Shown here one piece after another: positions 6,446 through 51,225 of a stretch of DNA of 64,000 nucleotides; positions within the stretch are counted from its first letter, which is position 1; every line of letters begins with the position of its first letter. The translations under genes and the position numbers were made by a program. Source of the stretch: a virus; the IMG/VR virus record IMGVR_UViG_3300037847_003419, positions 1 through 64,000 of that record, one strand, 5' to 3'. The notes beneath the pieces are model-generated. The model searched no databases and was not told where the DNA came from. It worked only from the letters and a program-made list of their open reading frames with translations.

Positions 6446-6940
6446 TTATTTGTTTTTTAAATATTCTTCAATATCTTTTATATATTTAGTTCTGCCATTT
6501 TGTTTAATAGCAATAACTTCTTGTTTTCTATTTGGTCTATGTGATACCCAACTAATATGAACCCAGTTAGGATTACCGTCAGGATATTCACCTCCAAACT
6601 CCCAAACCATTTGATCAAAATCTAAATTATCTTTTATATAGTGATACATCTCTGCGTTTGTTTTATGTCCAAAAGTATCGTCAATATCTATAGCTTGACC
6701 TTTCATGTGTTGTGATCTAGTACTACCACCTATTGCTGTATTAACAGGCTCGCCTCTAAAAAAGCTATTTATTTTTATTGGTCCACCTACCCACTCACGT
6801 AACGGCTCAAACAAATTTTCTGCAACTTCTTTCATGCATTTAATTTGTTCTTCGTTAGGAGTATTGTCTAAACCTCTTCTTTCACCTGTTCTACTATACG
6901 TGCCTTCGTGCCAGCTCACGTGTTTACTTATTCTTTCCAT
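6446..6940 (-). CDS. M15-family peptidase, probable endolysin
   Basis: 164 residues. This is a zinc D-Ala-D-Ala carboxypeptidase/endopeptidase fold that cleaves peptidoglycan cross-bridges. Seen: INSFFRGEPVN (substrate-loop Arg), SQHMKGQAIDID (H-x-x-G-x-A-x-D, first His and Asp ligands) and PNWVHIS (last His ligand). I start it at the ATG at 6940, after an A-rich leader, rather than an in-frame ATG at 6970 inside the preceding gene. No signal peptide, so a holin or other route (candidate at 48199-48591) would release it. Confidence 0.88.
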   Translation of the reverse strand: MERISKHVSWHEGTYSRTGERRGLDNTPNEEQIKCMKEVAENLFEPLREWVGGPIKINSFFRGEPVNTAIGGSTRSQHMKGQAIDIDDTFGHKTNAEMYHYIKDNLDFDQMVWEFGGEYPDGNPNWVHISWVSHRPNRKQEVIAIKQNGRTKYIKDIEEYLKNK

Positions 6941-6941
6941 A

Positions 6942-7256
6942 TTATTTATTTTTCCAACTACCATCAGCAAAGTCTTTTGCCTCTTGTTCTGTGTTAAATT
7001 GATATATTTCTTTTCTTTTTATAGCTTCTCTAAAAGCATCATCTGGCTGTTGCCATGTACCGTCGTCATCTTGAAACAAAGTAGGATAAGCCACGTATTT
7101 ACCGTCAGACTCACCATAAGCCATTAAATGTGTAGACGGTTTTTGTCCTTCGTACATTGGTTTATCTGAAAACTTTTTATCACCAACATAAACCTCTCCA
7201 TCTCTATCTTTTGGTTTTTGAGTAAACGGACTCCACCCCTTCATTTTAAAAGCCAT
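6942..7256 (-). CDS. Small protein with MAFKMKG N-terminus
   Basis: 104 residues starting MAFKMKGWSPFTQK. I chose the ATG at 7256 because it overlaps the stop of the tiny upstream gene (TAATG). The body (STHLMAYGESDGKYVAYPTLFQ, then a helix KEAEDFADGSWK-like) resembles a small phage domain of unknown role. The N-terminal motif recurs in at least four other late proteins of this window. It sits directly upstream of the endolysin. Confidence 0.75.
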   Translation of the reverse strand: MAFKMKGWSPFTQKPKDRDGEVYVGDKKFSDKPMYEGQKPSTHLMAYGESDGKYVAYPTLFQDDDGTWQQPDDAFREAIKRKEIYQFNTEQEAKDFADGSWKNK

Positions 7257-8628: not shown

Positions 8629-9023
8629 CTTCTTCTCGCTGCTCTACCTCTTTCACCAGTCCAGCCTCTCGATCTAGCACAAAATCCTTTTCTTCTTTTT
8701 GCTCTTTCACCTTTTGGATTTTTTTCTGTAACAGCTGTTTGTAAGTTGCTACCAGGATTTTGTTTTTTATAAGAAGCAACACCTGCTTTTGTCATACCAG
8801 CACCTTCTTCTTTTGATCTGAAATGCCTACCTTTACCTTTAGTCCTTTTGTTTGTTTGTGTAAAAGGCGAGTCTATAGCATAAGCAGCGTAATTAAAAGG
8901 ACCTTGTTCATTACGATCTTTACCAGGATTATTTATATCTCCATTAGCATTGTCATTCATAAACTGTCTACGCCTGCCACAACTAGTTTTTGAAAAAGGA
9001 TTATTTTTTTGTACGTATGCCAT
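8616..9023 (-). CDS. DUF6321-like basic protein
   Basis: 135 residues. The C-terminal half has GAGMTKAGVASYKKQNPG, SNLQTAVTE and RKGFCARSRGW, ending in an Arg-rich ARRRWRC. This is the layout of the DUF6321 family seen in cyanophages (L-x-G, NLK-PV, FCAR-R, RRW-C). The N-terminus holds NNPFSKTSCGRR and DSPFTQTNKR, close to the SPFxQ form of the recurring short motif. Probably nucleic-acid associated. It overlaps both neighbours by a few bases. Confidence 0.72.
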   Translation of the reverse strand: MAYVQKNNPFSKTSCGRRRQFMNDNANGDINNPGKDRNEQGPFNYAAYAIDSPFTQTNKRTKGKGRHFRSKEEGAGMTKAGVASYKKQNPGSNLQTAVTEKNPKGERAKRRKGFCARSRGWTGERGRAARRRWRC

Positions 9024-10051
9024 TATCTTATTATGTAATTTATACCCATTTTAAAATCGTACCACTCTCTATTCCAGTACTTGTTATATTTACCCTCTGC
9101 AAATACACCTAATCTTTTATTTATCTTTTGTCCAAATATCAAACCGCCTGAGTAATCCAACCATTGACCATCAATATAGTTATGATAACTAAACTCATCT
9201 TTATCATTATAGTGGTACGGCATTAAGTTAGCCCACGTGTGTATCCAAATACTTTTATTGTAGTAATAGTAATCTAAACCTACAACTAGCGAGTGTTGTA
9301 ATTTGTTATCTAACTCATTACGTTTTCTTTCAACATAATTAGCCAACACCTCTGGTATTACAATTTGCTCCCACACGTCTGATGAAAAAGCCACTACGTC
9401 ACCATCTGGATTATAATACATATCATGATAAACATCTACATTGTAACCTTCTTGTAAGGCTAAATAAGTATAGTGTATATTACCATTGTCTAACCTCCAG
9501 CTAGCAAGCGGGTCGTAACCATAAGGTTCAGATAATCTTTGAACAGCACCAACATTAAAGCTTATCTTACCAACATCATATCTGTATCTTTGTGATGTTT
9601 CAAAGTATTCTATATCTGCAAAACCATCTACTAAATACTCTGCTTTAGCTATCCAGTCGTTAGCTACATATCTTATAAAGTGATGTTGATCTAAATACTC
9701 TACACCTTCTTGTCTTTTGTAATCTACTTGAAATAAAAACTCTGTACCGTTTCTTTTACCTATTGTAGCGGCGTCACTATAGTTAGATTCAGTGCCATCA
9801 TAAAATGTATTAGCTCTGTTTTCATAACCAAATCTAGCTATTTTACGTATACCTAATGTTAAGTTATAATCGTAAGGTGTTTGTATTGTTTCAATACCTA
9901 AACCATCTGTAACGCTATAAGTTTCTACATCTGATATAGAGGTACCACCATTTACAGCTGCATAAAATGTAGAGAACTTAAATGTTTTCTTTATATCTAT
10001 TTGTGAGTAACTAAATATAGGTAGTAATAATAATACTAATAGCTTTTTCAT
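9023..10051 (-). CDS. Exported outer-membrane beta-barrel-like protein
   Basis: 342 residues. A clear signal peptide (MKKLLVLLLLPIFSYSQ) ends at a typical Bacteroidota S-Q cleavage site. The mature part alternates hydrophobic and polar residues with many Tyr/Trp and ends in strand-like FKMGINYIIR, as expected for an outer-membrane barrel. It is not a recognised porin family. It overlaps the T9SS-type gene upstream by 4 bases (ATGA), so the two are coupled. The phage may change the host surface late in infection, for example to block superinfection. Carriage as a virion part is less likely because of the signal peptide. Confidence 0.72.
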   Translation of the reverse strand: MKKLLVLLLLPIFSYSQIDIKKTFKFSTFYAAVNGGTSISDVETYSVTDGLGIETIQTPYDYNLTLGIRKIARFGYENRANTFYDGTESNYSDAATIGKRNGTEFLFQVDYKRQEGVEYLDQHHFIRYVANDWIAKAEYLVDGFADIEYFETSQRYRYDVGKISFNVGAVQRLSEPYGYDPLASWRLDNGNIHYTYLALQEGYNVDVYHDMYYNPDGDVVAFSSDVWEQIVIPEVLANYVERKRNELDNKLQHSLVVGLDYYYYNKSIWIHTWANLMPYHYNDKDEFSYHNYIDGQWLDYSGGLIFGQKINKRLGVFAEGKYNKYWNREWYDFKMGINYIIR

Positions 10052-12258
10052 TTTATAAATTTCTTTTCAACTGTTCCGTCTCTATATATAAAGAACAATA
10101 TTTTATTTTTCTCTATTCTTGCAGGTCTACCTAATATATCTGTTATCATTATTAGCTGTGATATACGTTGAGGTATTGGTCCTACCCAAGTTCCTTCGCA
10201 ATAATCATAGGTTAATTGACATATACTGTCCCAGTCATTTGTACAACAATATTCATCAATATCTATTACCCAGGCGTAACAAGGATCGTTTAACCAATAA
10301 GGTTCACCTGGACCTGTTATACACTCAGCTGCAAATAAACAAGTATCAGGTACGTTTGCTAGCTCTTCGTAGTTCCAGGCATCTTGGTCCATGCAACCCA
10401 CAACAACTTCAATACAAGAACCGTTATCTGTGTTAGCGCTAGAATCATAATTAATAGCAAGACTATCGGTACAGCCATAAATGTAAGGTATGCAGCTAAA
10501 ATCTTCTGTATTGGCGTCAGCTTGGTAGTTGAACATACTTGGATCGGTACAACCATATATAAAAGGAATACAAGGAGTAATATTATTTTGAGCATTTGCA
10601 AGCGGATTAAAATTAAACATAGTTGAATCCATACAACCGTATACAAATGGCTCGCAACTTCCATCGTCTGTATTTGCTAAACTATCATAGTTAAACATAG
10701 TTGAGTCAGTGCATCCGTAAACGTATGCTATACACGTATCAGGTGTGTTAGCAAGTGGATTATAGTTTAAGGCTAGACTTTCCATACATCCAATAATAAC
10801 AGGTAAACAACCACCATTATCCACGTTTGCAGTAGAGTCATAATTAAACGAAGCTGTATCTGTACATCCAAACACTGCTAAATTTACACAACTGTCTTGT
10901 ATATTAATATCTGTATAAACTCCGTTAGATGTGTCGATATGATACTCTAGATACGCAGGAGACATACAACCTGGTACATAATAACAAGGTAGCGGTGTAT
11001 TTGCCGTACTATCATAGTTAAATGCCATGTTATCCATGCACCCTTCAACTATTTCAATACACTCGTTACCACAATAGGTTATACCACCATACACAAAAAA
11101 AGGTTGTATAAACGGTGGTCTAACACTTATAACAGTATCACCCATAGGATTTATTAAAGTAAATCCACATTCAAGAGCCGTACCAGAAGCTTGTTGACTA
11201 ATAAAAAACTTAGCTCTTACTAGTTTAGGCGCTTTCAATTGTAAAGTGTAGGTTTGATCAAAACCAGATGTCATTACAAACTGCGACGTGTCATCTTGAT
11301 AAATTTCTAATCTACTACCAACCCAACCGTTACCTGCAAGATCATGCAGCACAAGAGTGTAATCGCAACTGTCTATGTAATCCATAGTGTTTGCGGTTGA
11401 GTCATAGTTAAACATTGTACTATCAGTACAACCATATATTTTTAAAGTAGCACAGCTACTGTCACTTACTGTGGCTGCTGGATTAAATTCAATATAATTG
11501 TCGTCCATACAGCCCGGCACTGGTGGTGGTGGAGTACACGTGTCTGACACAAATACATGCGTGGAATCTGTCCCAAAATTAGGTGTGGTACCAAACACCA
11601 AGGTATCTCCACATTGCATCAAATAATATGATCCATCGTTTCCACCCCACTGGCTTCCAGCTAAACCATCTCCGTACGTATCAAATATCGTAAACCTTAA
11701 AACACCTGTAGGTAAGCAAACTGGAATATATTGTGGTTGGTAATCAGGAGCGTTTGGGTATGGGCCTCCTGCTGCTATCAAATTACCCATTGTATCTGTT
11801 ATTTCCCAACTAGTTTCACTAGTAAACTGATCTAAATTTATATTTACCATAGCTGGCACGCACTGACCAGGTGGCGGAGGTTGTGGTACACAAGTAGGTA
11901 TTAGTCTATTCCAATACATACCACTATTAAAATTAGGTGTTGGTACTGATATTATAGTGTCTTCGCACACTGAGACATAAAAACTACCTGGAGACATCAT
12001 ACCGTCTCCGTAAGTATCTCTTATTAAAAACGTTATATTAGTTAAAGTATCTGCTAAAAACACAGTGTCTGTAAATGTAGAGTTTGCTGAAGTATAATGA
12101 CCAGCATCTACACTAGCTATAGTATCTCCATACAAAGAGTCTTTAAATATAATCCAATATGTTTCGCTTGGATAAGCGTCTGTGTTTAAATGTACTACTA
12201 AATTTTTTTGACTAAGTAAAGCAAAAGGTAGCAGCGTAAGCAAAAGTATTTTTCTCAT
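10048..12258 (-). CDS. Secreted repeat protein with T9SS-like C-terminal domain
   Basis: 736 residues from the ATG at 12258, which opens a signal peptide (MRKILLLTLLPFALLSQ); an ATG 12 bases earlier spoils it. Residues ~20-240 hold two similar beta domains containing DTYGDGM and DTYGDGL, and a third related block (DLAGNGWVGS) follows at ~300. About eleven Cys-bounded repeats of the form GCTDS-x-FNYDS-x-AN-x-DDGSC fill ~255-640, a pattern frequent in secreted Flavobacteriia proteins. The last ~35 residues (TDILGRPARIEKNK, then FIYRDGTVEKKFIK) resemble a T9SS sorting domain. It would be exported through the inner membrane and then sent to the cell surface by the host T9SS. The exact role, adhesive or protective, is unknown. 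Confidence 0.75.
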   Translation of the reverse strand: MRKILLLTLLPFALLSQKNLVVHLNTDAYPSETYWIIFKDSLYGDTIASVDAGHYTSANSTFTDTVFLADTLTNITFLIRDTYGDGMMSPGSFYVSVCEDTIISVPTPNFNSGMYWNRLIPTCVPQPPPPGQCVPAMVNINLDQFTSETSWEITDTMGNLIAAGGPYPNAPDYQPQYIPVCLPTGVLRFTIFDTYGDGLAGSQWGGNDGSYYLMQCGDTLVFGTTPNFGTDSTHVFVSDTCTPPPPVPGCMDDNYIEFNPAATVSDSSCATLKIYGCTDSTMFNYDSTANTMDYIDSCDYTLVLHDLAGNGWVGSRLEIYQDDTSQFVMTSGFDQTYTLQLKAPKLVRAKFFISQQASGTALECGFTLINPMGDTVISVRPPFIQPFFVYGGITYCGNECIEIVEGCMDNMAFNYDSTANTPLPCYYVPGCMSPAYLEYHIDTSNGVYTDINIQDSCVNLAVFGCTDTASFNYDSTANVDNGGCLPVIIGCMESLALNYNPLANTPDTCIAYVYGCTDSTMFNYDSLANTDDGSCEPFVYGCMDSTMFNFNPLANAQNNITPCIPFIYGCTDPSMFNYQADANTEDFSCIPYIYGCTDSLAINYDSSANTDNGSCIEVVVGCMDQDAWNYEELANVPDTCLFAAECITGPGEPYWLNDPCYAWVIDIDEYCCTNDWDSICQLTYDYCEGTWVGPIPQRISQLIMITDILGRPARIEKNKILFFIYRDGTVEKKFIK

Positions 12259-12259
12259 T

Positions 12260-12631
12260 TTAAAAATCACTCATTATTAATTCATCAACTTCTTCTTGTA
12301 CCTCTTTTCTTGTTACGGCCATAGTAAAACTAAGATCTGCTTGGTAACGTTTTACTTCTTCACCGTTAAAAACTATAATTGTAGGCACTACAACTATATT
12401 GTATTTCTTTTGCCAGTCACCTTCATCTATATTTATTCTTTTTATACCACAGTCATTTAACTTTTCTAACCAGTCTACACTATTAGCCTTGTTCCATCCA
12501 GCATTAAACTCAACTACACATACGTCTGTTTTGCAAATATTTTGTGCGTTAACAGTGTTGGCAAGCATTATAAATAATATTATTAAAAAATAAACTACAT
12601 ATACGCTGTGAGGTGTTTTAGTTTCTTCCAT
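12260..12631 (-). CDS. Exported thioredoxin-fold protein lacking the CxxC site
   Basis: 123 residues. A hydrophobic N-terminal segment (~residues 11-29, ending NTVNAQ) is a signal peptide or anchor. The rest follows the thioredoxin fold: VCVVEFNAGWNKAN where WCxxC would be, a helix, INIDEGDW, then the cis-Pro strand VVVPTIIVFNGEE. The usual active-site pair is replaced by W-N-K-A-N, although three other cysteines lie near (ICKTDVC, NDC). It may be a chaperone-like or binding version. Its stop immediately precedes the T9SS-type gene, which suggests a link to folding of that Cys-rich product. Confidence 0.7.
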   Translation of the reverse strand: MEETKTPHSVYVVYFLIILFIMLANTVNAQNICKTDVCVVEFNAGWNKANSVDWLEKLNDCGIKRINIDEGDWQKKYNIVVVPTIIVFNGEEVKRYQADLSFTMAVTRKEVQEEVDELIMSDF

Positions 12632-12909
12632 TATTCGTAAAGTTTTTCTTCTATTTTTTCAATAGACTTTTTGATTTCTTTAACGTCTTCCTGTGTATTC
12701 ATTATAGTATTACGTATCATTTGATCTTTCATATCAAATTCCATACGCGTAACCTCAGGGTCTGGTGGCGCTGGCAGCTCTTTTGCCTCTGCAATATCAG
12801 CTTGTAACGTGAACCACATACCAGCTATAGTTGCTATTGCAAAACCTATTCCTATCAATGTTTTTATGCTTAATACAAAACCTGTATCTTCGTTTAATTC
12901 TTTTGCCAT
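12631..12909 (-). CDS. Small membrane protein with coiled-coil tail
   Basis: 92 residues: a single transmembrane helix (~residues 14-33, SIKTLIGIGFAIATIAGMWF), then a linker and a heptad-like helix (DVKEIKKSIEKIEEKLYE). This plan fits an inner-membrane spanin, a holin-type protein or a phage membrane anchor. It overlaps the thioredoxin-like gene by one base and opens the exported-protein cassette. The choice between lysis and surface roles is open. Confidence 0.65.
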   Translation of the reverse strand: MAKELNEDTGFVLSIKTLIGIGFAIATIAGMWFTLQADIAEAKELPAPPDPEVTRMEFDMKDQMIRNTIMNTQEDVKEIKKSIEKIEEKLYE

Positions 12910-12953: not shown

Positions 12954-15900
12954 TTATTTAACCCTGTGACTAGGTATGTTACATCTACCATCTTGGTTTT
13001 TTACTGGATTACCACACGGTAAGCCTTTTGAATTTGTACCACCATTGTCACCACACGTTGGACCATCTTGGCCTCCATGTACGGAACATCTATCACCGTG
13101 GTTTTTAACGTTTCTAGCACATCTATCACCATCACTTGTTGCAGCAGAACATCTAACGTACTTAGCGTCAGGATTAGATCTTTTTTCTATCTCTACGTCT
13201 TTTGCTATTTCTTCTTCTTTAGTAAGTTTTTTCTCTTCTTTTTTATCTTCCTTTTTCTGTTCTTTAACTTCTTCTCTTACTTCTTTTACTTTTGTGTCTA
13301 AACCAACATCCCATGGATTCCAGCCAAGTATAATCATTAGCTCTTTCCAAAACATTTCTTCAAACTCTTCTTCTGTTTCAGCTTCATTGTGCACCACAGT
13401 TAAAAGATTTTGTACTCTTGAAATAACCTCGTTAGCAGGTATGTTTGTAAAAGCTTGTACTGTGTTAGCAATTACATTTAACTGAGGATTCATAGGATCG
13501 TTCCAGTCCATAGCTTCTATAACATCCTCGTTTATTTGCTTTGTTTTTATAGCAGAGTATATTTGTCTAAGTTTTATACCTACAACTGGAGATATATTAG
13601 CAAATTGTAATATAGTATAAGTGTGATCAGCGTTCCATCCTTTAGATTCTTGCTCTTTATATTCTATTACACCGTTTACAACAGTTACTAGTATAACACC
13701 TTCTAGACCCATACCTACTAATATGGATTCAATAGTACTTTTTATCCAACTATCAGATCTAGTCTCCCAATCTTCGTCTTCGTCCATTAAAGCAATAAAG
13801 ACAGCTTGTTGCAAGCCAGTAAACAAAAGGTTTTGTATAGCTCCGTAGTATAATATATCTTTAACATTTTGAGCAACTGTACCTCTTTTGTTTCTTATAT
13901 TGTCAATTGCATTAACTATTTTACGAGTATACTGTTGCGGTGTTACTTTGAAGTTTAATAAAAACTTACCAAGTATAGACGATTGTTCGTAAGATAATTT
14001 ATCAGGTCTGATAGACTGTTGTGTCGCTTGTGTGTTTTCCCATGTTTTATCCCAAGCCATTTGCTCTGCTTCTTGTTTAGAGTAACCTTGGCTAATAAAA
14101 TAATTTACATAATTTCTATAGTAAGCAGCACCACCTAAAGAAATAGCTAAACTATCCGCTATTTGTGTCATGAGAAATCCTTTACTTAGTAACCATCCAA
14201 CGGCTGCTCTAGACTGTGCTATAACACCACCTTCTATTGTTGACATATAATCAACGAGTTCACTTATATTAACATCTATTTTTCTACCACCTCTTCTAGC
14301 AACCATATCAGGATGCATTAATATAAAACCAACGTCAGCCCAATATTGTTTTACATTAGCAAAGGCACGAGCAGAGTTAAATAAACTGTTAGGACCTCTA
14401 AGTTCTATATAGTTTATACTAGAAAGCATCTGTAATATTGCTGAACGTGTATTAGCAAACATAACAACCGCTGTAGAACCACCTAAAAATTCCATCCAAG
14501 CTTTTTCTAAAGTACCCATTTCTGAAGACCTTTTAGGTTTACCGTTTTCCATTTTATAAAGCATCTCTTCTACATACTTTCTAAAAGAACTTCCGTACAG
14601 AGCTTCTATCTTATTTAGATTAGCTTCACTAAATACTTCGTTTTTAATTTCAATCCAGTCTTTTAATACTTCAGCTCTAACACCACTGTTCATGTGGAAG
14701 TATAAATCTCCACTTATAGTATTTACAACCCAATCTTTTCCTGGTGTTACATAACCGTCGGTTATATTGTCTAAGCCCTGTGCGTACAATAATAGGTCTG
14801 GATTATTTTCAACTGTTGAAATTAATTCTTTTAACTCTTTTTTACTTAATCCTAGTTTGTCTTTGTGTCCGTTTTTATTAAAAAGCCAAACTCTAACAGC
14901 GTCTCCATTAGTAAAACCTGTTTTACCAATCTCTTGTTTTAAAAGTTTTTTAAGTTTTTGCTTGCCAATTTTACTTCTTATTTTATCATGAAGCTCTCTT
15001 GTCTCAGCTTTTCTTCTATCAATTTCACTTAAAGCTCTAGCGTAAGGTGTTATTAAGTTTTCAATTAAATACTCTAACTCTTTTTCTCCTTTTGCGCCTT
15101 TACCAATAAATACTCTTAACATCTGCTCAAAATCCATAGCAGAAGGATTCATTATGAACTGGAATCTACCTTTGTTTTTACCATGCGCTTGTGCTTGCGC
15201 TCTTGAAAACTCTTGATTTTCAGGTATGTTGGCATTTTCTGATAATATAACATTAAAGTTTTCTCCTAAAGAATTTTTATTTTCAGGTCTTGTTACTATA
15301 GATTTACCACCGTCAACAAACATGCCCTCTGGATACATGTCAAACATTTTTTGAACAGCCTCTACGTTTGGTATATGATCGTCTATAAAAACAATATCGT
15401 TATAACCATTAAAAATTAAATTCTCTTCTATCCAATCTGCTTTAGCTTCACCGGTACTATTACCTAAACCTATTACATTTTCAGCTTTTAAATAAGGAAC
15501 GTTAGTTCCATTAGCTTTGTTATACACGTCTATTCTAAAGTTTATAAAAGCAAGTATATTTGGTTGAGAACCTGAGGCTCTTGCTGTAAGTATAAAAACG
15601 CCTTCTGGTCCAAATCTTATAAGTTGCTTTATTAAGTAAGGAAAAACAGGACCTTCCTTACCGTCTGTAACATTATCAAAGTCAGAGAAGTCCATTTCCC
15701 AACCTTCTTGTAGTAACCTGTCACCATCCTTAGCCCAATCAACGCCGTCTAAATCTCTAGTTTCACCAGTCTCTGGATTAGTTGCTATTACAACGTTACT
15801 ACTTTCGCCAACAGTTAAATCAAAGTCCAAAACAGTACCTCCTAGATAAGGTAAACCTATAGAGTGTTTATTTATAATTTGTTTTCTTTTTTCTCTTTTC

Positions 15901-18900
15901 TCTCTTGATACTTCTGATTCAATTAAAGCTAGTTTGTTTTTGGCTTGTTCTATAAGTTCATCAACTTTTAAATCAAATTCAACACCACTAATATGCATTA
16001 TAGTTTTTCTAATTTGCTCTGGTAATTGTTTTAATCTTTCAAAGCCAAGAGTACTGTTGGTACCTGTAAGTTTATCTATAAGATCCATCTGTACCTTTGG
16101 TCCTAACCATTGTCCGTGATCAGAGAATAGCTCTTTAACTCTTTCTTTTATATTTATACTAGGATCTTTAGTTGACTCTAACATAAGCTTCATAAGACTA
16201 AACATTTTATTACCGTTTGGATCTATATGCTCACCTTTTTGAAACCAAGTACTAACTTTGTTTTCTATAGTAATTAAATCTAAAGTTGTAAACGCTCTAA
16301 ATCCTTTACTGATATTTGTTTGTGCTTGTAATAAGTGTAACGCTGACACTATACTTATCTTACCATCTTTAACAAGGTTTACTAACTTTTCAGTCATGTA
16401 TTCTAATAATATTATATTAGCCTTATTAGCGTTTCTTATCTCATCACCAAACAATCTTTCTAACCTTTCTTCTTTTTGCTCTTTTATTGATGGCGCGTCT
16501 GGTCCAGTATCATAATCTGTAGCGGCTAAAACTTGGGTATATATCTTTTTCATTAAACCGCTACCACTATTCATCTCTCTAATATCCGCAACAACTAGAC
16601 TAGAAGGTAAGTCTGAGTCAATGTTTTTTAGTCTACTAATTAAGTTTTGATGCCTTTCGTAAAACTCACCTCTTACTAACTCAGCACCGTCACTAACAGG
16701 GTCTACTGATATAGTTCCTTTTGCAAACTTACCATCGTCGTTTACCTTTATAAAATCATTTGTCTCTGGTCTAAACCTCCAGCCTTTTACTAACTTACTA
16801 GTTTCGCCGTTACCAGATTGATTGTTTTTGTCAAATTTTCCTTCAGATCTCTTAGGCCCTTGTTTAGAAGCGCCTATATCCATAGCTGAATAATGGAAAC
16901 CAAATATATCTGGCCCTAATGCTAAATAAGCATCATAACCCAACTCTAATATTACAGCTTCCATAGCGTCAAACATTCTATCTAAAACGCCTTTACCATC
17001 TTTATCTACGTTACCGTTGTTCTTTATAGTACCATCGCTTTTAAATTGATTCGCTATATCTCCAAAACCGTTTTGCTCTAACCATTTAATTGTTTCTTTT
17101 TTAAAGAAAACTTCTTCGTTAGTTTCAAAAGCAACTTTATCATTAGCGTATATTACTGTCGCTATAGATTCTTTACTATACTTACCTTCTTCACCTATAA
17201 CCTCTAAGTTATCCTCATCAATAACATCTTCGTAAGAACTTTTTCTAATTAGCCTAGCTATAGCACTAACTTCTTTTAAGTATTTCTGATTTAAAAGTAT
17301 TTCAAAACCAAATATTTCAAACTGGTCTCCAAGAGAAAACTTCATCAAAGGATCTCTTTTTATAGTCTCTACTAGTTTACCAGTTATAGTTTCTAACTCA
17401 TTAGGTAAAGCATCAAAAACAGCGTCTAAACCTAACTCAGCAGCTAAAGAGTTTATTAAAGATTTGTATCTAGTTTCTCTTCCTTCTGTAAATAAAGCTA
17501 CAAAAACATCATTATCAATGTCATAGTTTTTAATCCATATATCATTACCAGCTGTACCACTTAATACAAAAGCACCTTTAATATCAGTCTGTTCTTTAAC
17601 AGATTTATCTACAGGCATTCTACCTCCATGCGTAGATAATTCAGGAAATCTATTTTTATATTTAACAGCTAGTAAATCTATTATTAATCTTTTGTTATCT
17701 AATAAAAACTTTTTAAGCGTAGCGTCAGTTCCTCTTCTATTTGTAGGATTTATTATACCTTTTATAACATCTTTAAATGCTTCTGTAAACTCTTTCTCTA
17801 GTTCTTGTCTAAACTTTTTCTTTTGTTTTGGGTTTTGTAAAGCATCTTCTAAGGTTAGAGCATCTACTTTGCTCATTAAAGACTCTTTAACTTTGTTAAA
17901 TATTAATTTATAAGTATCACTATCTTTTGTTATACCAAAAGCTTTTCTTAGTTTAGAGTTTATTAATTGATCAACAGTAGTTTCAATACCCTCAATTTCA
18001 TTACCAAAGTCGCCACCACCATCATCTTTAATATCATCTTGCACTTCTGTTTTAACTACGTTTAATTGAGCTTTTTCAAGTATGTTACCTACTTGTAACT
18101 TTACGTTTTGCATTAAATACTTACTAAGCTCTTGTCCAAAACTAGGGTCGTATCTATCAATATATTTAAGTATTTCTAACTCTATGTCTCTTCTAAAATC
18201 AACAAACTTATAAGCTTGCTCAGGATTACTTTTTTGAGCTTCAAAGTTCCATATCTTACTTACAGTAGTAACATAAGGCTGCATCAACTTAAGTATCTTA
18301 GTTTTCATTATTTGTTCACTAATATCACCATTAAGATACGAGTTATACACATTAGCAACAGCTAACGATCTTTCCTCTTGACTCATGCCTTTATTAGTTT
18401 CTTGATTTAACAGCTCGTCTCTTCTAGCTCTTTTTTCGTTTAGTGCGTCTTCGTTTTCTTTTTGTAACTCTTCTTTTCTATTATTGTATTCTGTAGTACC
18501 AGGAACTAAATTTTCTTCCTTAAGTGTATTTTGTATTTTAAGTGATATATCTCTTATATCATTTTTTATTTGAGTTAGTTCTATTTGTTCGTTGGTTGAA
18601 AGAGAATGTTTAGTAACGTCAGTTTCAGTATCGTCTGTTTCGTCTCCAAATATAATTTTGCTTCTTTTTGTTTGAGAGTGGTATTTACTAATATACCTAT
18701 AAACGTCCATTGGACTATTAAAGTTAATATAAGGCGCAAGGCTTGGTTTGAGTTTTTTAAGTAAACCATTTATAAACACTCTTAAATCAAACAGTTGATT
18801 AAAATCACTAGGTTTTAAACCTCCCCAAAACATTATGTCATGAACTATATTCATTAACTCTTCAGTTCTTACAGACTTATTTTTAACATTTTTTTCATAA

Positions 18901-21900
18901 AACTCTATACGTTTTTTGAAATGTGTTAAAGCCTCTGGAGTTAATTTCTTTTGTTTAGCAAGTTTATTCATAAGGCCCTTTAACTCTTCAACAGCTTTTT
19001 GATGTTGTTTCTTTAATTCGCCTTTTAATATAAGACCCTTAGTAATATGGTACTCATGAAATATTTCGTGTAGAGGAGTTGCGGCAGCGTCTGACGCTTC
19101 AAGTATGTCATCATGAAGAAGTATTTTTTGCAAAATAAAACCGTTAAGTATATACAAATTTCCAGTTCGATCTGATCTATAACCATTAGATTTTTTACCT
19201 TCAATAGCTGCTTCAAGTTCAGCTATTTCAGATTTAATTTGCTCTTCACTGAATCCTTGGCGTTTTAGTTGTTTTTTTATTTCTTTTATCTCTTTAGGAG
19301 TTGGCAAAACACCTTTTATAATAAATTTAGCTTTTTTAGTTTTAGTGCCTTTCATTATAAGTAAAGCTGATTGATAAGCTGATAGAAGTTGTTTTCTTCT
19401 AACTGGATTAATACCTTTTTCTATCATCTTTGCTTCGTACTCTTCCATCAACTCGTTTACTTCAGAGTTTGCTTCAAAAAAAGCATCTATTTGATCCTGT
19501 ATTTCTTTATATTCTTTTTCTAGTTGCTCTATTTCTTTTTTGTCAAAATCTAATTGCTCACCCATTTTTTGAGCTTCAAGAAGTTTAGCTTTTCTTTTAG
19601 CTGCCAGATCAAATATTTCTTTAATTTTTTGACCTTTACTTTTTATAATGTTACCATTTTCGTCAACATCATCTTTGATATTATCTAACTTACCAATTAT
19701 ATTGTTTTCAAGCTCATTTAACTGTTTTAGCAAGTCATCTTTTCTTTGTGTTAACTCAGATATATCTTGTTTGCTTAAATTTCCTTCCTTTTTATTTTCG
19801 TTTAAATCTTGTGTTATAGCCTCTAGTTCGTTCGCTAACTCTTCAACCAATGCCATTTCTTTGCTAGTCAAAACAGATTCTCTAATAACTAAAGCTATAG
19901 GTTTAAGAGAGGCGTTTGTTTGTAATATGGTACTAAAAGCAACAACATTAGCATAAAAATCAGCGTCCATTCCATCAAAAATACCTATTTGGCCACCTGT
20001 AGATGTAGTTTCTCCAGTTAGTATAGCTAAAGCATTTTTAGAAATTTGATCTAACATTTCTTCAAAAACTTCAATACTTATATTCAAGCCAACAAAACCT
20101 CCAACCTTAAATAGATTTTTAACCCTCATGCCTGGACCTAACTTTGGCTTAAATTTTTGCCATTTTTGAAGTACCTTTAACGTACCAAAACGCTCAGCAA
20201 CACCAGTTATAATACCGTGCGAAATAGAAACAAGTCTATCACCTGTTTCACTACGTTCTAATATACTTTTTTGCACTAGTATTTGTTGCTGTATAAATTC
20301 TTTTTCACCTTCACTTAAATTAGGATCTAATAGTTGTGATTCTAATTTTTGTATTATAGCGATAGCGTTTTTCCTAGATGTTTTAACATCAGTGTATTTA
20401 CCTCCAGCTGCCCAAGACGCAAATATAGCGGTAGTAATATAAGGCCCAACTCCTGGTATTAACATCGTTAAAAGAGCGGCGCCGTTAGCACTATTTGAAA
20501 CTAGCATATCAGCAAACCAAAGGCCAAGTCCTACGTCATCCTTCCATTTTGAAGCTTGAGGAAAATTTTCTGAGTAAACCTCCATGGTCTCTCTTGCTTT
20601 TTTTGTAAAGAACTCTCCCCATATCTCATCACCCCATAAAGCCTCTGATGCAGCAAGTATCTGTGTAAGCATTGTGCCTAAATTAACAAAAGTTTTGCTC
20701 CAGTAGTCATAATTTTTACTCAAAGCTGAATAATAAGGAGCGTTTTTGTCTAAGTTGTTTTTGTCTTCTAAAAGTAGTTTTTGATCAGTATCTAAATCGT
20801 TAGTAAAGTTAATTATTCTTTGTCGTTCTGATACAGCTTTTTGAAAGTCATCAGCTATTTCTGTCATTCTACTTATAATACCAGCTATGTAGCTTCTATC
20901 AACAGCAGAAGAATCCTTGTCTAACATAGATGCGGCTAGCTCTTTTTGAAGCCTTGTCATTTCGTCTATAATAGGCTGTTGGTTTTTTTCCCAGTCTTTA
21001 GTTCGTTTTTCAAGACTATATTCTGAATAATTATTTAAGTCTATACCATCTTTTAACAGTAGATCAAATTGTTCAGGGTATTTTCTTTTAAAATCTTTTA
21101 TACCCTCTTGCCTAAGCAAAATCTCTAACATTCTAAACGTTTGTTTTTTAAGAAGCGCCTCTTGTATAAGTTCACCAGACTTAGCGGGATCTTCAACAAA
21201 AGGTATGTCATCTAACATTTTTAAAATATCGTCAGATCCTCCTAGTTCGTTTAATCTAGCTCTAACGCCTTTAAATACAGTTGTACCTGCGTCATGCTTC
21301 TTGCCTTTACCTCCAATTCTTAAAAGACCGTCTTTACCGAAGTAAACATATTGTCTACCGTCTATACCACCTCTAGCTATATTGTAACCGTCTTTTATTT
21401 GTTGTAAAATATTATCAACTGTTAAAATACCTCTTGTTTTCTTTACATTTAAAAATACTAACTCTCCATTTTTATTTTTAAAATAAACAAAAGCAACTTC
21501 TTCTCCATTTATTTGTTTGTATATAACAGGTTCTTCAAAGTTCTTTATACCAGTACCATTGTTAGTTAAAAAATTATTAGTTATTCTATGAGCCTTTTCT
21601 ATTTCACTTTCAGTAATTCCAAAATTAACCATCATAGCTTCTTCGCTAAAAACATTAACGCCTCTTTTCTTTTTTTGGTTGTCGTTAAGATTTATAATTT
21701 TGTTAAATAAATTTACAGCTCTATTGTAATAATTTTTTAATATAGCATATTCATCCTCTCTACCTTCTAACTGTATCTCATTAATTATTTCTGCAATAGC
21801 GCTTTTTCCTTTAAGACCTGCTTTACGCGCGTCGTAAATAGATTTTATTATAGCAAGATCTTGTTTAGTAACATCTTCTAAATCCGAAGTTTGTAATTTT

Positions 21901-22988
21901 TTAAAGTTATTACTAATAATTCTTTCTTTTTCTAAAAACAAATAATTGTCTAAAAACTCTTTAGTAAAAAGATCTTCAAGATTAAAAAGGTTTAAATCAC
22001 CTGTTTGCATCCATTTTAAATAACTCTCTTTTTTCTTGTCACTCCAAGAGTTCCAAACTTTCATTTTGTTATTTGCTTCGGCCTGTTTTGACAATTGCTG
22101 TTGTTGTTCAAGGTCTGTTGCGTAAGGATTAATGTTTGCTTCTGCAATACCTTTTTCAAAATTTTCAATTTCTTTTTGACTAAAATTGTAACCTTGAAAG
22201 TAATCATCTTTAATAATATTACCTTTAACACTCTCAAGAGTTATGTTTTCAACTTGTCTGCTTATATTATCTAAATAATCTAAAACTCCTTTGGATTGTA
22301 TACCAAGTTCATCTGCTATTGCTTTTACTTGATCCTTAGGGTCAGTTATTATGTCTCCTTCAACAGGTACTTCTGGAAGCATTGTAGGATCGTAGTCTTC
22401 AAAAACACCCTTAGATTCGTTATAAACAATATTCATATCAGCTAACTTGTTTATAAATATCTCTCTTTCTTGTGGATTTTTTATTGAAGATAATATTTCT
22501 TGTGATTTTTGTCTAGCAATATAAGTTTCATCGGTAGGAGTAGTTATTTCACCCTCGGGAAACAAATCTTTATAGTCTAAAACAAACTGACTAGCTTGGT
22601 TTATAGCATCTTGAAAAATTGGGTCGTTGTCTAAATAACTATAATCTTTTGGTGGTAGCTTTTGCTCAGTTTCGCCTTCAAATAAATCTACAGGTTGACA
22701 AACACCTCTCTCGTCTTTTTTGTAACCTTCTGGACATTTGTCTTCAGCTGGACTTGTTGTGCTAGTTGTAGAAGGTTGTGACACTGTTGTAGGTTGTGTT
22801 GTAGATGGGTCAACTGGCTGCAAAGTAATATCATCAGTTGCGCTTGGTGTTACAGTTGTCGTGGTTCCAACGTCTTGTTTTAGTGGTGAATTTTTAGAAT
22901 TTACCTCCTTTATAACAGACGCTATATCTTTTTCAGACACACCGTCAGCAACCATTTTTTCTACTAAATTTTGTAAATAATTACTCAT
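12954..22988 (-). CDS. Giant multidomain virion/ejection-type polyprotein (3344 aa)
   Basis: The largest gene in the window. The N-terminus has NSPLKQD, a copy of the recurring short motif, then a Thr/Pro/Ser linker. A hydrophobic segment (~840-860, MLIPGVGPYITTAIFASW) could insert in membranes. At ~1305 there is LHEIFHEYH, a zincin HExxH motif inside long Lys/Glu helices. At ~2390-2540 a HAD-type phosphatase is visible: LDFDLTVG (motif I), ILTAR (motif II), FIDDHIPN (motif IV). The last ~70 residues have two Cys/His clusters (RCSAATSDGDRC, RCSVHGG and a second set) like small zinc knuckles. Giant proteins of this design in podoviruses are usually ejected with the DNA. No RNA polymerase DxDGD signature was found. 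The roles of the embedded enzymes are inferred. Confidence 0.75.
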   Translation of the reverse strand: MSNYLQNLVEKMVADGVSEKDIASVIKEVNSKNSPLKQDVGTTTTVTPSATDDITLQPVDPSTTQPTTVSQPSTTSTTSPAEDKCPEGYKKDERGVCQPVDLFEGETEQKLPPKDYSYLDNDPIFQDAINQASQFVLDYKDLFPEGEITTPTDETYIARQKSQEILSSIKNPQEREIFINKLADMNIVYNESKGVFEDYDPTMLPEVPVEGDIITDPKDQVKAIADELGIQSKGVLDYLDNISRQVENITLESVKGNIIKDDYFQGYNFSQKEIENFEKGIAEANINPYATDLEQQQQLSKQAEANNKMKVWNSWSDKKKESYLKWMQTGDLNLFNLEDLFTKEFLDNYLFLEKERIISNNFKKLQTSDLEDVTKQDLAIIKSIYDARKAGLKGKSAIAEIINEIQLEGREDEYAILKNYYNRAVNLFNKIINLNDNQKKKRGVNVFSEEAMMVNFGITESEIEKAHRITNNFLTNNGTGIKNFEEPVIYKQINGEEVAFVYFKNKNGELVFLNVKKTRGILTVDNILQQIKDGYNIARGGIDGRQYVYFGKDGLLRIGGKGKKHDAGTTVFKGVRARLNELGGSDDILKMLDDIPFVEDPAKSGELIQEALLKKQTFRMLEILLRQEGIKDFKRKYPEQFDLLLKDGIDLNNYSEYSLEKRTKDWEKNQQPIIDEMTRLQKELAASMLDKDSSAVDRSYIAGIISRMTEIADDFQKAVSERQRIINFTNDLDTDQKLLLEDKNNLDKNAPYYSALSKNYDYWSKTFVNLGTMLTQILAASEALWGDEIWGEFFTKKARETMEVYSENFPQASKWKDDVGLGLWFADMLVSNSANGAALLTMLIPGVGPYITTAIFASWAAGGKYTDVKTSRKNAIAIIQKLESQLLDPNLSEGEKEFIQQQILVQKSILERSETGDRLVSISHGIITGVAERFGTLKVLQKWQKFKPKLGPGMRVKNLFKVGGFVGLNISIEVFEEMLDQISKNALAILTGETTSTGGQIGIFDGMDADFYANVVAFSTILQTNASLKPIALVIRESVLTSKEMALVEELANELEAITQDLNENKKEGNLSKQDISELTQRKDDLLKQLNELENNIIGKLDNIKDDVDENGNIIKSKGQKIKEIFDLAAKRKAKLLEAQKMGEQLDFDKKEIEQLEKEYKEIQDQIDAFFEANSEVNELMEEYEAKMIEKGINPVRRKQLLSAYQSALLIMKGTKTKKAKFIIKGVLPTPKEIKEIKKQLKRQGFSEEQIKSEIAELEAAIEGKKSNGYRSDRTGNLYILNGFILQKILLHDDILEASDAAATPLHEIFHEYHITKGLILKGELKKQHQKAVEELKGLMNKLAKQKKLTPEALTHFKKRIEFYEKNVKNKSVRTEELMNIVHDIMFWGGLKPSDFNQLFDLRVFINGLLKKLKPSLAPYINFNSPMDVYRYISKYHSQTKRSKIIFGDETDDTETDVTKHSLSTNEQIELTQIKNDIRDISLKIQNTLKEENLVPGTTEYNNRKEELQKENEDALNEKRARRDELLNQETNKGMSQEERSLAVANVYNSYLNGDISEQIMKTKILKLMQPYVTTVSKIWNFEAQKSNPEQAYKFVDFRRDIELEILKYIDRYDPSFGQELSKYLMQNVKLQVGNILEKAQLNVVKTEVQDDIKDDGGGDFGNEIEGIETTVDQLINSKLRKAFGITKDSDTYKLIFNKVKESLMSKVDALTLEDALQNPKQKKKFRQELEKEFTEAFKDVIKGIINPTNRRGTDATLKKFLLDNKRLIIDLLAVKYKNRFPELSTHGGRMPVDKSVKEQTDIKGAFVLSGTAGNDIWIKNYDIDNDVFVALFTEGRETRYKSLINSLAAELGLDAVFDALPNELETITGKLVETIKRDPLMKFSLGDQFEIFGFEILLNQKYLKEVSAIARLIRKSSYEDVIDEDNLEVIGEEGKYSKESIATVIYANDKVAFETNEEVFFKKETIKWLEQNGFGDIANQFKSDGTIKNNGNVDKDGKGVLDRMFDAMEAVILELGYDAYLALGPDIFGFHYSAMDIGASKQGPKRSEGKFDKNNQSGNGETSKLVKGWRFRPETNDFIKVNDDGKFAKGTISVDPVSDGAELVRGEFYERHQNLISRLKNIDSDLPSSLVVADIREMNSGSGLMKKIYTQVLAATDYDTGPDAPSIKEQKEERLERLFGDEIRNANKANIILLEYMTEKLVNLVKDGKISIVSALHLLQAQTNISKGFRAFTTLDLITIENKVSTWFQKGEHIDPNGNKMFSLMKLMLESTKDPSINIKERVKELFSDHGQWLGPKVQMDLIDKLTGTNSTLGFERLKQLPEQIRKTIMHISGVEFDLKVDELIEQAKNKLALIESEVSREKREKRKQIINKHSIGLPYLGGTVLDFDLTVGESSNVVIATNPETGETRDLDGVDWAKDGDRLLQEGWEMDFSDFDNVTDGKEGPVFPYLIKQLIRFGPEGVFILTARASGSQPNILAFINFRIDVYNKANGTNVPYLKAENVIGLGNSTGEAKADWIEENLIFNGYNDIVFIDDHIPNVEAVQKMFDMYPEGMFVDGGKSIVTRPENKNSLGENFNVILSENANIPENQEFSRAQAQAHGKNKGRFQFIMNPSAMDFEQMLRVFIGKGAKGEKELEYLIENLITPYARALSEIDRRKAETRELHDKIRSKIGKQKLKKLLKQEIGKTGFTNGDAVRVWLFNKNGHKDKLGLSKKELKELISTVENNPDLLLYAQGLDNITDGYVTPGKDWVVNTISGDLYFHMNSGVRAEVLKDWIEIKNEVFSEANLNKIEALYGSSFRKYVEEMLYKMENGKPKRSSEMGTLEKAWMEFLGGSTAVVMFANTRSAILQMLSSINYIELRGPNSLFNSARAFANVKQYWADVGFILMHPDMVARRGGRKIDVNISELVDYMSTIEGGVIAQSRAAVGWLLSKGFLMTQIADSLAISLGGAAYYRNYVNYFISQGYSKQEAEQMAWDKTWENTQATQQSIRPDKLSYEQSSILGKFLLNFKVTPQQYTRKIVNAIDNIRNKRGTVAQNVKDILYYGAIQNLLFTGLQQAVFIALMDEDEDWETRSDSWIKSTIESILVGMGLEGVILVTVVNGVIEYKEQESKGWNADHTYTILQFANISPVVGIKLRQIYSAIKTKQINEDVIEAMDWNDPMNPQLNVIANTVQAFTNIPANEVISRVQNLLTVVHNEAETEEEFEEMFWKELMIILGWNPWDVGLDTKVKEVREEVKEQKKEDKKEEKKLTKEEEIAKDVEIEKRSNPDAKYVRCSAATSDGDRCARNVKNHGDRCSVHGGQDGPTCGDNGGTNSKGLPCGNPVKNQDGRCNIPSHRVK

Positions 22989-27386: not shown

Positions 27387-28595
27387 TTATGTTAATGTTA
27401 TTGTTACTGTTTTTGTCGCGCTGTCTGTCGTACCGTCGTTACATTTAAAAGTAAAGCTATCTGTCTCAACAACACCAGTGTTTTTATACGTTATAGTACT
27501 ACCTGAAAAAGTATTGTTGTTAAACGAAGTAGAGAACGTGCCTGTGTCGTTGCTACCAATTGCACCATCTGAAGGCTCAGTTACTCTACTATACGTTTTA
27601 GTATTCGCGTTAGCATCTGTATCTCCAGCGCCACAGTCTATTAATACTGATTCTCCAGTTACACACGTAGCTGTTATGTCAGACGCGTTTGGAGTTGTTG
27701 ATACAAAATTATTAAGAGCCCACTGAACTGTCATATCAGCATATCCAAATCTTTCTATCTCAGCAGTTACCGATGCTGTTAACGAAGTTGTTCCAGATCC
27801 AGTTACAGTGGCATCGTTAATAGAAATTACATATCCGCTTTTAGAAAAAAATAATGTTTCGTCAATTTCTAACTGAGGAAAATCTGGCCCTGAGTTAATA
27901 GTAATAATATTACTACCACTTTTAGTTATTGTCATTTCTTCATTTATATTTTCACCAGAAATAGCGTCTCCATTGTTTATATTTGTATCATCATCTACAG
28001 CTATTATTCTTCTGTTTGGGTCAAATTTTAAAACTTTAGCAGAGCTATAATAAGTGTTTGAAAAGTCTCCTCCTGTGCTAACGTTCCAAGTAGGTTGCCT
28101 GCTAGTATACAACAGAGCAGAAGATTTAGTAATAGTACCAGACAAAGTAAAATCAAAAAGAATATCAGACTCAACATCTTCATAACCAATTGATCCTGGA
28201 GAGCCTGTAAAAGTAGCGTCTAAAGTTGAAGCTATAGTATGGCCTACCGTGGTGTGATTAGTATCAAAAGTTAAAGTTTTATTAAGATAGTCTTTAAATT
28301 GTAAAAAATTCACACCTGGAGTAATTTTTTTATATTTATCATTTTCATCACCAACTTGTACACCAGCGACTGTTTTCAACTGATAGTCATAAGTTTCATC
28401 TACTGAAGGCTCTGGTAAAAGTATTTGAACATTGCTAAAACCACTAGCATCTACAACTCTATCAACAGTTGTTGGAGCAGATGTAAATGTTTGTGTAGTT
28501 TCATCATAAGTATTACCAGCGGCATTAGTAATAGATACTTTTGCTAAAGCTCCTGGTGTTCCAGTTATTATTATATTTTTGTATAAATCTGACAT
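27387..28595 (-). CDS. Beta-rich tail/adhesin protein with Ig/cadherin-like end
   Basis: 402 residues, Thr/Ser/Asn-rich with few charged helices. The C-terminal ~90 residues (TYSRVTEPSDGAIGS ... DSFTFKCNDGTTDS, then ATKTVTITL) follow the VxxPSxGxLG ... DxFTFxxNDG pattern of bacterial cadherin-like/Ig repeats that bind cell surfaces. It directly follows the 2259-residue tail gene with a one-base overlap. It is a candidate host-binding appendage. Domain call moderate, role inferred. Confidence 0.65.
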   Translation of the reverse strand: MSDLYKNIIITGTPGALAKVSITNAAGNTYDETTQTFTSAPTTVDRVVDASGFSNVQILLPEPSVDETYDYQLKTVAGVQVGDENDKYKKITPGVNFLQFKDYLNKTLTFDTNHTTVGHTIASTLDATFTGSPGSIGYEDVESDILFDFTLSGTITKSSALLYTSRQPTWNVSTGGDFSNTYYSSAKVLKFDPNRRIIAVDDDTNINNGDAISGENINEEMTITKSGSNIITINSGPDFPQLEIDETLFFSKSGYVISINDATVTGSGTTSLTASVTAEIERFGYADMTVQWALNNFVSTTPNASDITATCVTGESVLIDCGAGDTDANANTKTYSRVTEPSDGAIGSNDTGTFSTSFNNNTFSGSTITYKNTGVVETDSFTFKCNDGTTDSATKTVTITLT

Positions 28596-50967: not shown

Positions 50968-51225
50968 TTAATCTATAAGTACGACGTCTTGTTGTTTTAT
51001 AACGCCGTAAAATTTATCTTTATGTTGTATACCGTGGCCTGCGTGTTTATCGTAGTATATAACGTCGTCATTATTTATACCTTCTACTAAATTACCAACA
51101 GATACAACTTTTGCCTTTAAATATCTATTATCTTCGTTAATTTCATCTGTTAAAATTAATCCACCAACTTTTTTAGGCTCGTTCTTTATAGGGTCGATAA
51201 TTATATAATGATTAACTGCCTTCAT
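50968..51225 (-). CDS. groES: Co-chaperonin GroES (Cpn10)
   Basis: 85 residues, about 12 shorter than the bacterial protein. VNHYIIIDPIKNEPKKVGGLILTDE covers the first strand and the mobile loop with the hydrophobic GGLILT that docks onto GroEL. KAKVVSVGNLV, DDVIYYDKHAGHGI and YGVIKQQDVVLID give the remaining strands. It follows groEL with a 14-base overlap, so the order is groEL-groES, opposite to the usual bacterial operon. Together they probably fold the capsid protein. Confidence 0.9.
   Translation of the reverse strand: MKAVNHYIIIDPIKNEPKKVGGLILTDEINEDNRYLKAKVVSVGNLVEGINNDDVIYYDKHAGHGIQHKDKFYGVIKQQDVVLID

Follow-up and report, generated by a model that had tools for sequence, protein, structure and literature searches.

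A four-gene cassette of marine phages and a candidate short sorting tail for the type IX secretion system of Flavobacteriales

Can a phage employ a secretion system of its host to place one of its own proteins on the outside of the infected cell? This question is raised by a locus in the IMG/VR virus record IMGVR_UViG_3300037847_003419, of which we analysed a 64 kb window (positions 1 to 64,000 of a 65,872-bp viral record; "the window" denotes this whole stretch). A first-pass annotation of the window had proposed that four overlapping or abutting genes at 9023-12909 form a late cassette for remodelling the host surface and that one of the products is exported through the type IX secretion system (T9SS). 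Four minus-strand open reading frames (ORFs) occupy exactly this interval; the genes for P0004 and P0003 overlap by 1 bp (TAATG), those for P0003 and P0001 abut with 1 nt between them, and those for P0001 and P0002 overlap by 4 bp (ATGA). The analysis presented here suggests that P0001 is quite probably displayed on the cell surface via the host T9SS and that surface remodelling is the most likely role of the cassette, which comprises the following features (lengths in amino acids, aa):

12631..12909, minus strand: P0004, one transmembrane helix, then a coiled coil, predicted inner-membrane protein, 92 aa (sequence)
12260..12631, minus strand: P0003, signal peptide and thioredoxin fold whose CxxC position reads Asn-x-x-Asn, predicted periplasmic and redox-dead, 123 aa (profile, alignment)
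10048..12270, minus strand: P0001, putative exported Cys-rich T9SS cargo, 740 aa (736 from the ATG at 12258) (sequence, homologues)
12211..12258, minus strand: P0001 signal peptide (MRKILLLTLLPFALLS/Q) (sequence; hydrophobic helix in the model)
11542..12210, minus strand: P0001, two beta-sandwich domains, residues 21-243 (AlphaFold model m6da3ef2c7d70; predicted local distance difference test score, pLDDT, mostly 77-93)
10321..11514, minus strand: P0001 repeat region, 11 GC[TM]x...C units; unit 2 is followed by a third beta domain, residues 301-400 (sequence and model)
10180..10320, minus strand: P0001, small Cys-rich helical domain (PYWLNDPCYAWVIDIDEYCC...YC) (sequence and model)
10051..10179, minus strand: P0001, candidate short sorting tail, 43 aa (..ITDILGRPAR..ILFFIYRDGTVEKKFIK) (tail comparisons)
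9023..10051, minus strand: P0002, phage-specific outer-membrane beta-barrel with a signal peptide, 342 aa (structure model)

The signal peptide, the approximately 11 repeats and the C-terminal motifs that the first-pass annotation attributed to P0001 are all present. The Sec signal peptide (MRKILLLTLLPFALLSQ), which follows the likelier start codon, the ATG at 12258, forms a helix in the predicted model, and exactly 11 'GC[TM]x' units were counted between residues 253 and 644 of a protein that contains 37 cysteines. In the model, three beta-sandwich domains are accompanied by the chain of 11 Cys repeats and by a small helical domain rich in cysteine, and the tail forms three strands (706-710, 723-729 and 734-739); Foldseek searches with it produced only non-specific matches to proteins with multiple beta domains.

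Comparison of P0001 with its homologues reveals two kinds of C-terminus, a canonical one (YPNPT...KKIIKQ) and a short one (TDILGRP...IYDDGTVEKKFIK). With matches counted at E ≤ 0.1, the profiles of the type A C-terminal domain (CTD), TIGR04183 and PF18962, each recognise 25 of the 50 homologues (best E-values 4.7e-13 and 3e-14, respectively), and NF033708 weakly matches a single one; P0001 itself has no match in NCBIfam, including the type B/C models TIGR04131 and NF033708. The profile search that the first-pass annotation had suggested thus came out positive for half of the homologues but negative for P0001. The exchange of tails is evident from the proteins of contigs L113 and L105, which are 77% identical up to '..NYC.GTWSGPL..R' and thereafter continue into a canonical CTD in L113 and into the short tail in L105. 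On the P0002 tree, the kind of tail changes at least nine times, with six of the changes forced by well-supported (starred) branches. Given these swaps on otherwise like proteins and the repeated switches on the barrel tree, the two tails appear, from sequence comparison, to be equivalent in function on a single cargo. The short tail retains B-, D- and E-like motifs (DxLGR, LFFIY and KKxIK, respectively), and no other ORF of the fetched phage loci carries it. For one type A CTD, the C-terminal 22 residues have been found to suffice for secretion of green fluorescent protein (review PMC10202324).

Another line of evidence comes from a survey of 296 bacterial genomes of the order to which the metagenome-assembled genome (MAG) G002, titled Flavobacteriales, belongs, for which a profile of the phage tails served as the query. 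The short tail was detected in 94 of these genomes, the best E-value being 8.6e-20 and the highest number of copies counted in one genome being 24. A sample drawn from the whole phylum gave matches in only 2 of 395 genomes, one of them MAG G002 itself, so that the occurrence of the tail is restricted to a part of the order. The carriers are mostly Flavobacteriales with genomes of 1-2 Mb. In the sampled loci (L162-L194), the tail is located at the extreme C-terminus in all 33 cases, a signal peptide is present on 22 of the 24 complete ORFs, and the bodies of the proteins are unrelated to one another, including leucine-rich repeats (LRR), a PHB-depolymerase-like esterase, redoxin and PKD. The consensus in the order, ..[IV][TV]D[IL]LGR....N.LLFYIYDDGTVEKKIIIE, is C-terminal and spans 43 aa; no model in Pfam or NCBIfam covers it, and no paper mentioning the motif DGTVEKK was found by full-text search. 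The PorU sortase was matched in all 20 short-tail genomes tested (above the cut-off in 19), each of which also yielded 25 to 64 matches to TIGR04183.

Because the short tail is C-terminal, is attached to exported proteins with unrelated bodies and occurs in PorU-bearing genomes, we read it as a candidate T9SS signal, its distribution being what such a sorting signal would look like. Arguably, the tail might instead direct proteins to a surface anchor outside the T9SS, which would fit the failure of the recognised T9SS models to detect it and its weak profile similarity to type A CTDs; but the tail and canonical T9SS CTDs replace each other on one protein, and the tail keeps the B-, D- and E-like motifs and occurs together with PorU wherever this was tested, which makes such an anchor very unlikely. 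The proposal of a T9SS-exported phage product therefore draws on the canonical CTDs of half of the homologues, the C-terminal placement of the short tail on exported proteins and the T9SS-bearing genomes in which it occurs, although a catalogued CTD on P0001 itself is lacking. A more ambitious proposal, which we consider evenly balanced, is that the 43-aa tail is a minimal T9SS signal that would join types A, B and C as a fourth, hitherto unclassified kind, is used by tens of exported proteins per genome in a lineage of Flavobacteriales with mostly small genomes, and has been copied by the phages of that lineage for the surface-remodelling protein of a four-layer trans-envelope cassette.

Some host proteins, among them G167:C7 (matching residues 464-739 of P0001) and G281:C162, resemble P0001 from the repeats through the short tail, and therefore P0001 is probably derived from host surface proteins. 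Among the phage homologues, the number of repeats varies, and three contain a MAM domain. In one locus (L123:3790-3963), a P0001 homologue is broken just before the short tail, which continues in another frame, reflecting either a frameshift or an assembly error.

Two scans of viral contigs yielded 156 loci, reduced to 139 contigs after removal of duplicates. The complete four-gene set is present in 101 of these, and many of the contigs without it are truncated at their ends. The P0004 gene is followed by the P0003 gene in 117 of 117 contigs (with a gap of at most 30 bp in 104), and the 101 four-gene contigs fall into three gene orders: P2-P4-P3-P1 in 57, P4-P3-P1-P2 in 31 and P1-P2-P4-P3 in 13. 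The ratios of nonsynonymous to synonymous substitution rates (dN/dS), estimated against four close relatives, are 0.16-0.20 for P0001, 0.04-0.12 for P0002, 0.10-0.21 for P0003 and 0.06-0.20 for P0004; all four genes are under purifying selection. The joint recurrence, the invariant order of the P0004 and P0003 genes and the low dN/dS values argue that the cassette is not a chance assembly, and the first-pass delineation of the four genes is upheld. In contig L160, the cassette lies beside genes for a RecA/UvsX-like recombinase and ribonucleotide reductase, with an amidase endolysin gene directly after that of P0003, and these surroundings indicate that the cassette is present in more than one type of phage. 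A contig with the barrel gene of the cassette was found inside a Nitrosopelagicus (archaeal) MAG (L161), probably through binning contamination, and a second P0003-like thioredoxin-fold ORF, weakly similar and on the opposite strand, is present at L043:1580-1894 (minus strand).

The prediction of an outer-membrane barrel with a signal peptide was borne out by the structural model of P0002, a closed beta-barrel of about 14 strands (pLDDT 73.7). The structural matches listed are outer-membrane barrels, including NanC (Foldseek E-value 1.2e-6) and CymA (Z 11.0, root-mean-square deviation 5.2 over 204 residues); structures of PorV and SprF are not among the VIA-align matches listed, an absence that decides nothing. 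P0002 is absent from 295 of the 296 genomes of the order, the lone match being a phage contig binned into a MAG. P0002 could be a cognate barrel of the PorP/SprF kind and hold P0001 at the surface in the way that sprF serves sprB, a mechanism that would be compatible with T9SS-mediated display. The P0001 gene precedes the P0002 gene with a 4-bp overlap here and in 31 of the 55 contigs that show this order, and genes for type B cargo and PorP/SprF are known to cluster (PMC10202324). Nevertheless, this anchoring role appears doubtful: P0002 matches neither TIGR03519 (PorP/SprF) nor any other NCBIfam model, P0001 has no type B CTD, and in 57 of the 101 four-gene contigs P0002 comes first and P0001 last.

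The thioredoxin fold of P0003 is supported at the sequence level by a profile match to the thioredoxin structure 2vim in PDB (E-value 5.6e-8) and, together with the signal peptide, agrees with the first-pass description of an exported thioredoxin-like protein. The companion suggestion, that this protein assists the formation of disulfides in the Cys-rich repeats, falls because the CxxC site is replaced by [WF]NxxN in 107 of 108 distinct homologues, with both active-site cysteines changed to asparagine; a role as a redox chaperone of the repeats was therefore rejected. P0004 was correctly described as a membrane coiled coil. At the sequence level, its single transmembrane helix and coiled coil could suit the layout of an inner-membrane spanin (i-spanin), provided that the topology is, as predicted, N-in with the coiled coil in the periplasm.

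The window encodes a P22-like portal and a large terminase, along with GroEL and ribonucleotide reductase. Of the phage records that match the terminase, 86 of 87 are phages of Flavobacterium, Cellulophaga, Tenacibaculum or Maribacter, and the cassette-bearing marine phages probably infect hosts of the Flavobacteriia type. Neighbours of the cassette include:

12954..22988, minus strand: 3344-aa giant protein, probably virion-internal, upstream neighbour that ends 44 bp before P0004
8101..8628, minus strand: PAP2-superfamily phosphatase (profile)
6446..6970, minus strand: M15 peptidase, probable endolysin (profile and context)

The phosphatase has no obvious membrane helices and has relatives in 14 contigs. 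The 3344-aa protein contains an HExxH motif (LHEIFHEYH) and a Cys-rich C-terminus (RCSAATSDGDRCARNV..) and possibly represents several enzymes in a single chain. The GroEL gene (51212-52777, minus strand) encodes a Cpn60 protein (E-value 4.9e-55), and a staphylococcal-nuclease-like gene often lies shortly downstream of the P0004 gene (36 contigs, e.g., L020:4019-4387).

The late position that the first-pass annotation assigned to the cassette is supported: structural and lysis genes adjoin it. A scan for the flavobacterial promoter pattern detected no site immediately upstream of P0004, in keeping with, although not proof of, read-through from the structural operon. Lysis genes abound around the cassette, with an M15 endolysin in 31 contigs and holin-like proteins in 35 and 25. 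P0004, P0003 and P0002 might accordingly be seen as a spanin-like trans-envelope complex that breaches the outer membrane at lysis while P0001 loosens the surface layer, and the presence of one protein in every envelope layer, the M15 endolysin of the window and the amidase that follows P0003 in L160 are compatible with such an accessory role. We nonetheless consider it unlikely: P0002 is a barrel of about 340 aa, unlike the small outer-membrane lipoprotein of o-spanins, with a lipobox in 33 of 116 homologues and none in the P0002 of the window; an adhesin-like protein exported by the T9SS would be unnecessary for lysis; the T9SS halts when the proton gradient collapses; and the holin-like gene of the window, which encodes three transmembrane helices, is about 36 kb away.

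GCTD..DGSC repeats also occur near the C-terminus (29387-29905) of a 2259-aa phage protein that lacks a signal peptide (ORF 28595-35374, minus strand), which adjoins virion genes in the window, and on a protein of cyanophage S-CAM3 annotated as virion structural. These related repeats, and the position of the cassette downstream of structural genes, would be accounted for if the four proteins were virion components with incidental signal-like N-termini, but signal peptides of the Bacteroidota type are present on three of the four, P0001 terminates in a sorting tail or a true CTD, P0002 is an outer-membrane barrel, and none of the four matches a structural PHROG, so that this explanation is extremely improbable.

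Surface display of P0001 would involve one component of the cassette per envelope layer, with P0004 in the inner membrane, P0003 in the periplasm, P0002 in the outer membrane and P0001 on the exterior of the cell. Made with a Sec signal peptide, P0001 would reach the periplasm, where the host T9SS would read its C-terminal tail and carry it to the surface; there, its beta-sandwich and disulfide-type repeat domains would coat the infected cell late in infection. The phage would borrow the tail type of its host's own T9SS, canonical type A in about half of the cases and the 43-aa tail here. We infer the secretion and surface location of P0001, the matching of tail to host, the contacts among the four proteins and the one-protein-per-layer arrangement. 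As for the purpose, we tentatively suggest that P0001 masks or competes out receptors, which in flavobacteria would include gliding adhesins exported by the T9SS, such that infected cells and debris take up no further phage. Receptor masking is favoured because T9SS-exported adhesins are candidate phage receptors in Cellulophaga (PMC13288928) and because surface coating is typical of T9SS cargo. The beta-sandwich domains, the MAM domain of three homologues, the variable number of repeats and the use of the same repeats in host proteins would also suit an adhesin that aids spread by making infected cells adhere to one another, to particles or to new hosts; however, P0001 itself matches no ligand- or sugar-binding family and its structural matches are non-specific, and we regard this role as fairly unlikely.

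Several observations weigh against T9SS-mediated surface display and its proposed purpose. No T9SS model matches P0001 even at E ≤ 1, and the TIGR04183 and PF18962 profiles, run directly on the window, gave nothing at E ≤ 10; profile-profile comparison finds weak similarity between the short tail and type A CTDs (probability 3.7%, P 0.011), so that the case for the T9SS rests on the tail swaps and the host distribution; and the short tail lacks motif A (PNP) and most of the seven-strand immunoglobulin-like fold. For superinfection exclusion, an early position would be a better fit than one in a late operon. Searches of cultured phages found no relative of P0002, P0003 or P0004 that would point to a host.

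If surface display holds, a widespread group of marine phages would routinely use a bacterial secretion system to act outside the infected cell. The exchange of two sorting tails on a single cargo is a natural experiment that asks what the T9SS actually reads, an open question in a 2023 review. An uncatalogued sorting tail would enlarge the secretomes of marine Bacteroidota by many surface proteins, and the tail type may act as a host marker for uncultivated phages.

Like the type A CTD (TIGR04183/PF18962), the short tail is C-terminal on Sec-exported proteins and has similar end motifs (DxxG[RK], a hydrophobic strand and KK.[IV]K), but that of the window is only 43 aa long, has neither the PNP motif nor most of the fold, and falls below detection. 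The succession of a cargo gene and an outer-membrane barrel gene recalls sprB-sprF and PorP-anchored type B cargo, but neither PorP/SprF nor the type B CTD is matched in sequence. P0003 shares with the thioredoxin family the fold and the cis-Pro segment (VVPTIII) and differs from it in the [WF]NxxN site that replaces CxxC. Llp-type lipoproteins of phage T5 mask receptors at the host surface and are exported via Lol; P0001 would be functionally analogous, as a phage product at the host surface that blocks receptors, but is not homologous and would be exported by the T9SS rather than Lol. The closest precedent is Cryophage (Bellas et al. 2020, PMC7468147), for which phage-borne T9SS type A cargo was described and hijacking of the host T9SS proposed. 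Both systems feature phage-borne proteins with type A sorting domains, here on homologues of P0001, and the proposed use of the T9SS by a phage, called unusual in the first-pass annotation, is common in the present phage group and has one precedent in Cryophage. Cryophage, a phage of freshwater ice, has three variable genes (endoglucanase, GH39 and PA14), whereas the many marine phages considered here have a single repeat protein rich in cysteine, encoded in a constant set of four genes that includes a dedicated outer-membrane barrel, and about half of them carry a short tail that the models miss. What is new, then, is the fixed cassette with its phage-specific barrel and its spread among marine phages, together with the short tail and the thioredoxin-fold partner predicted to be redox-dead.
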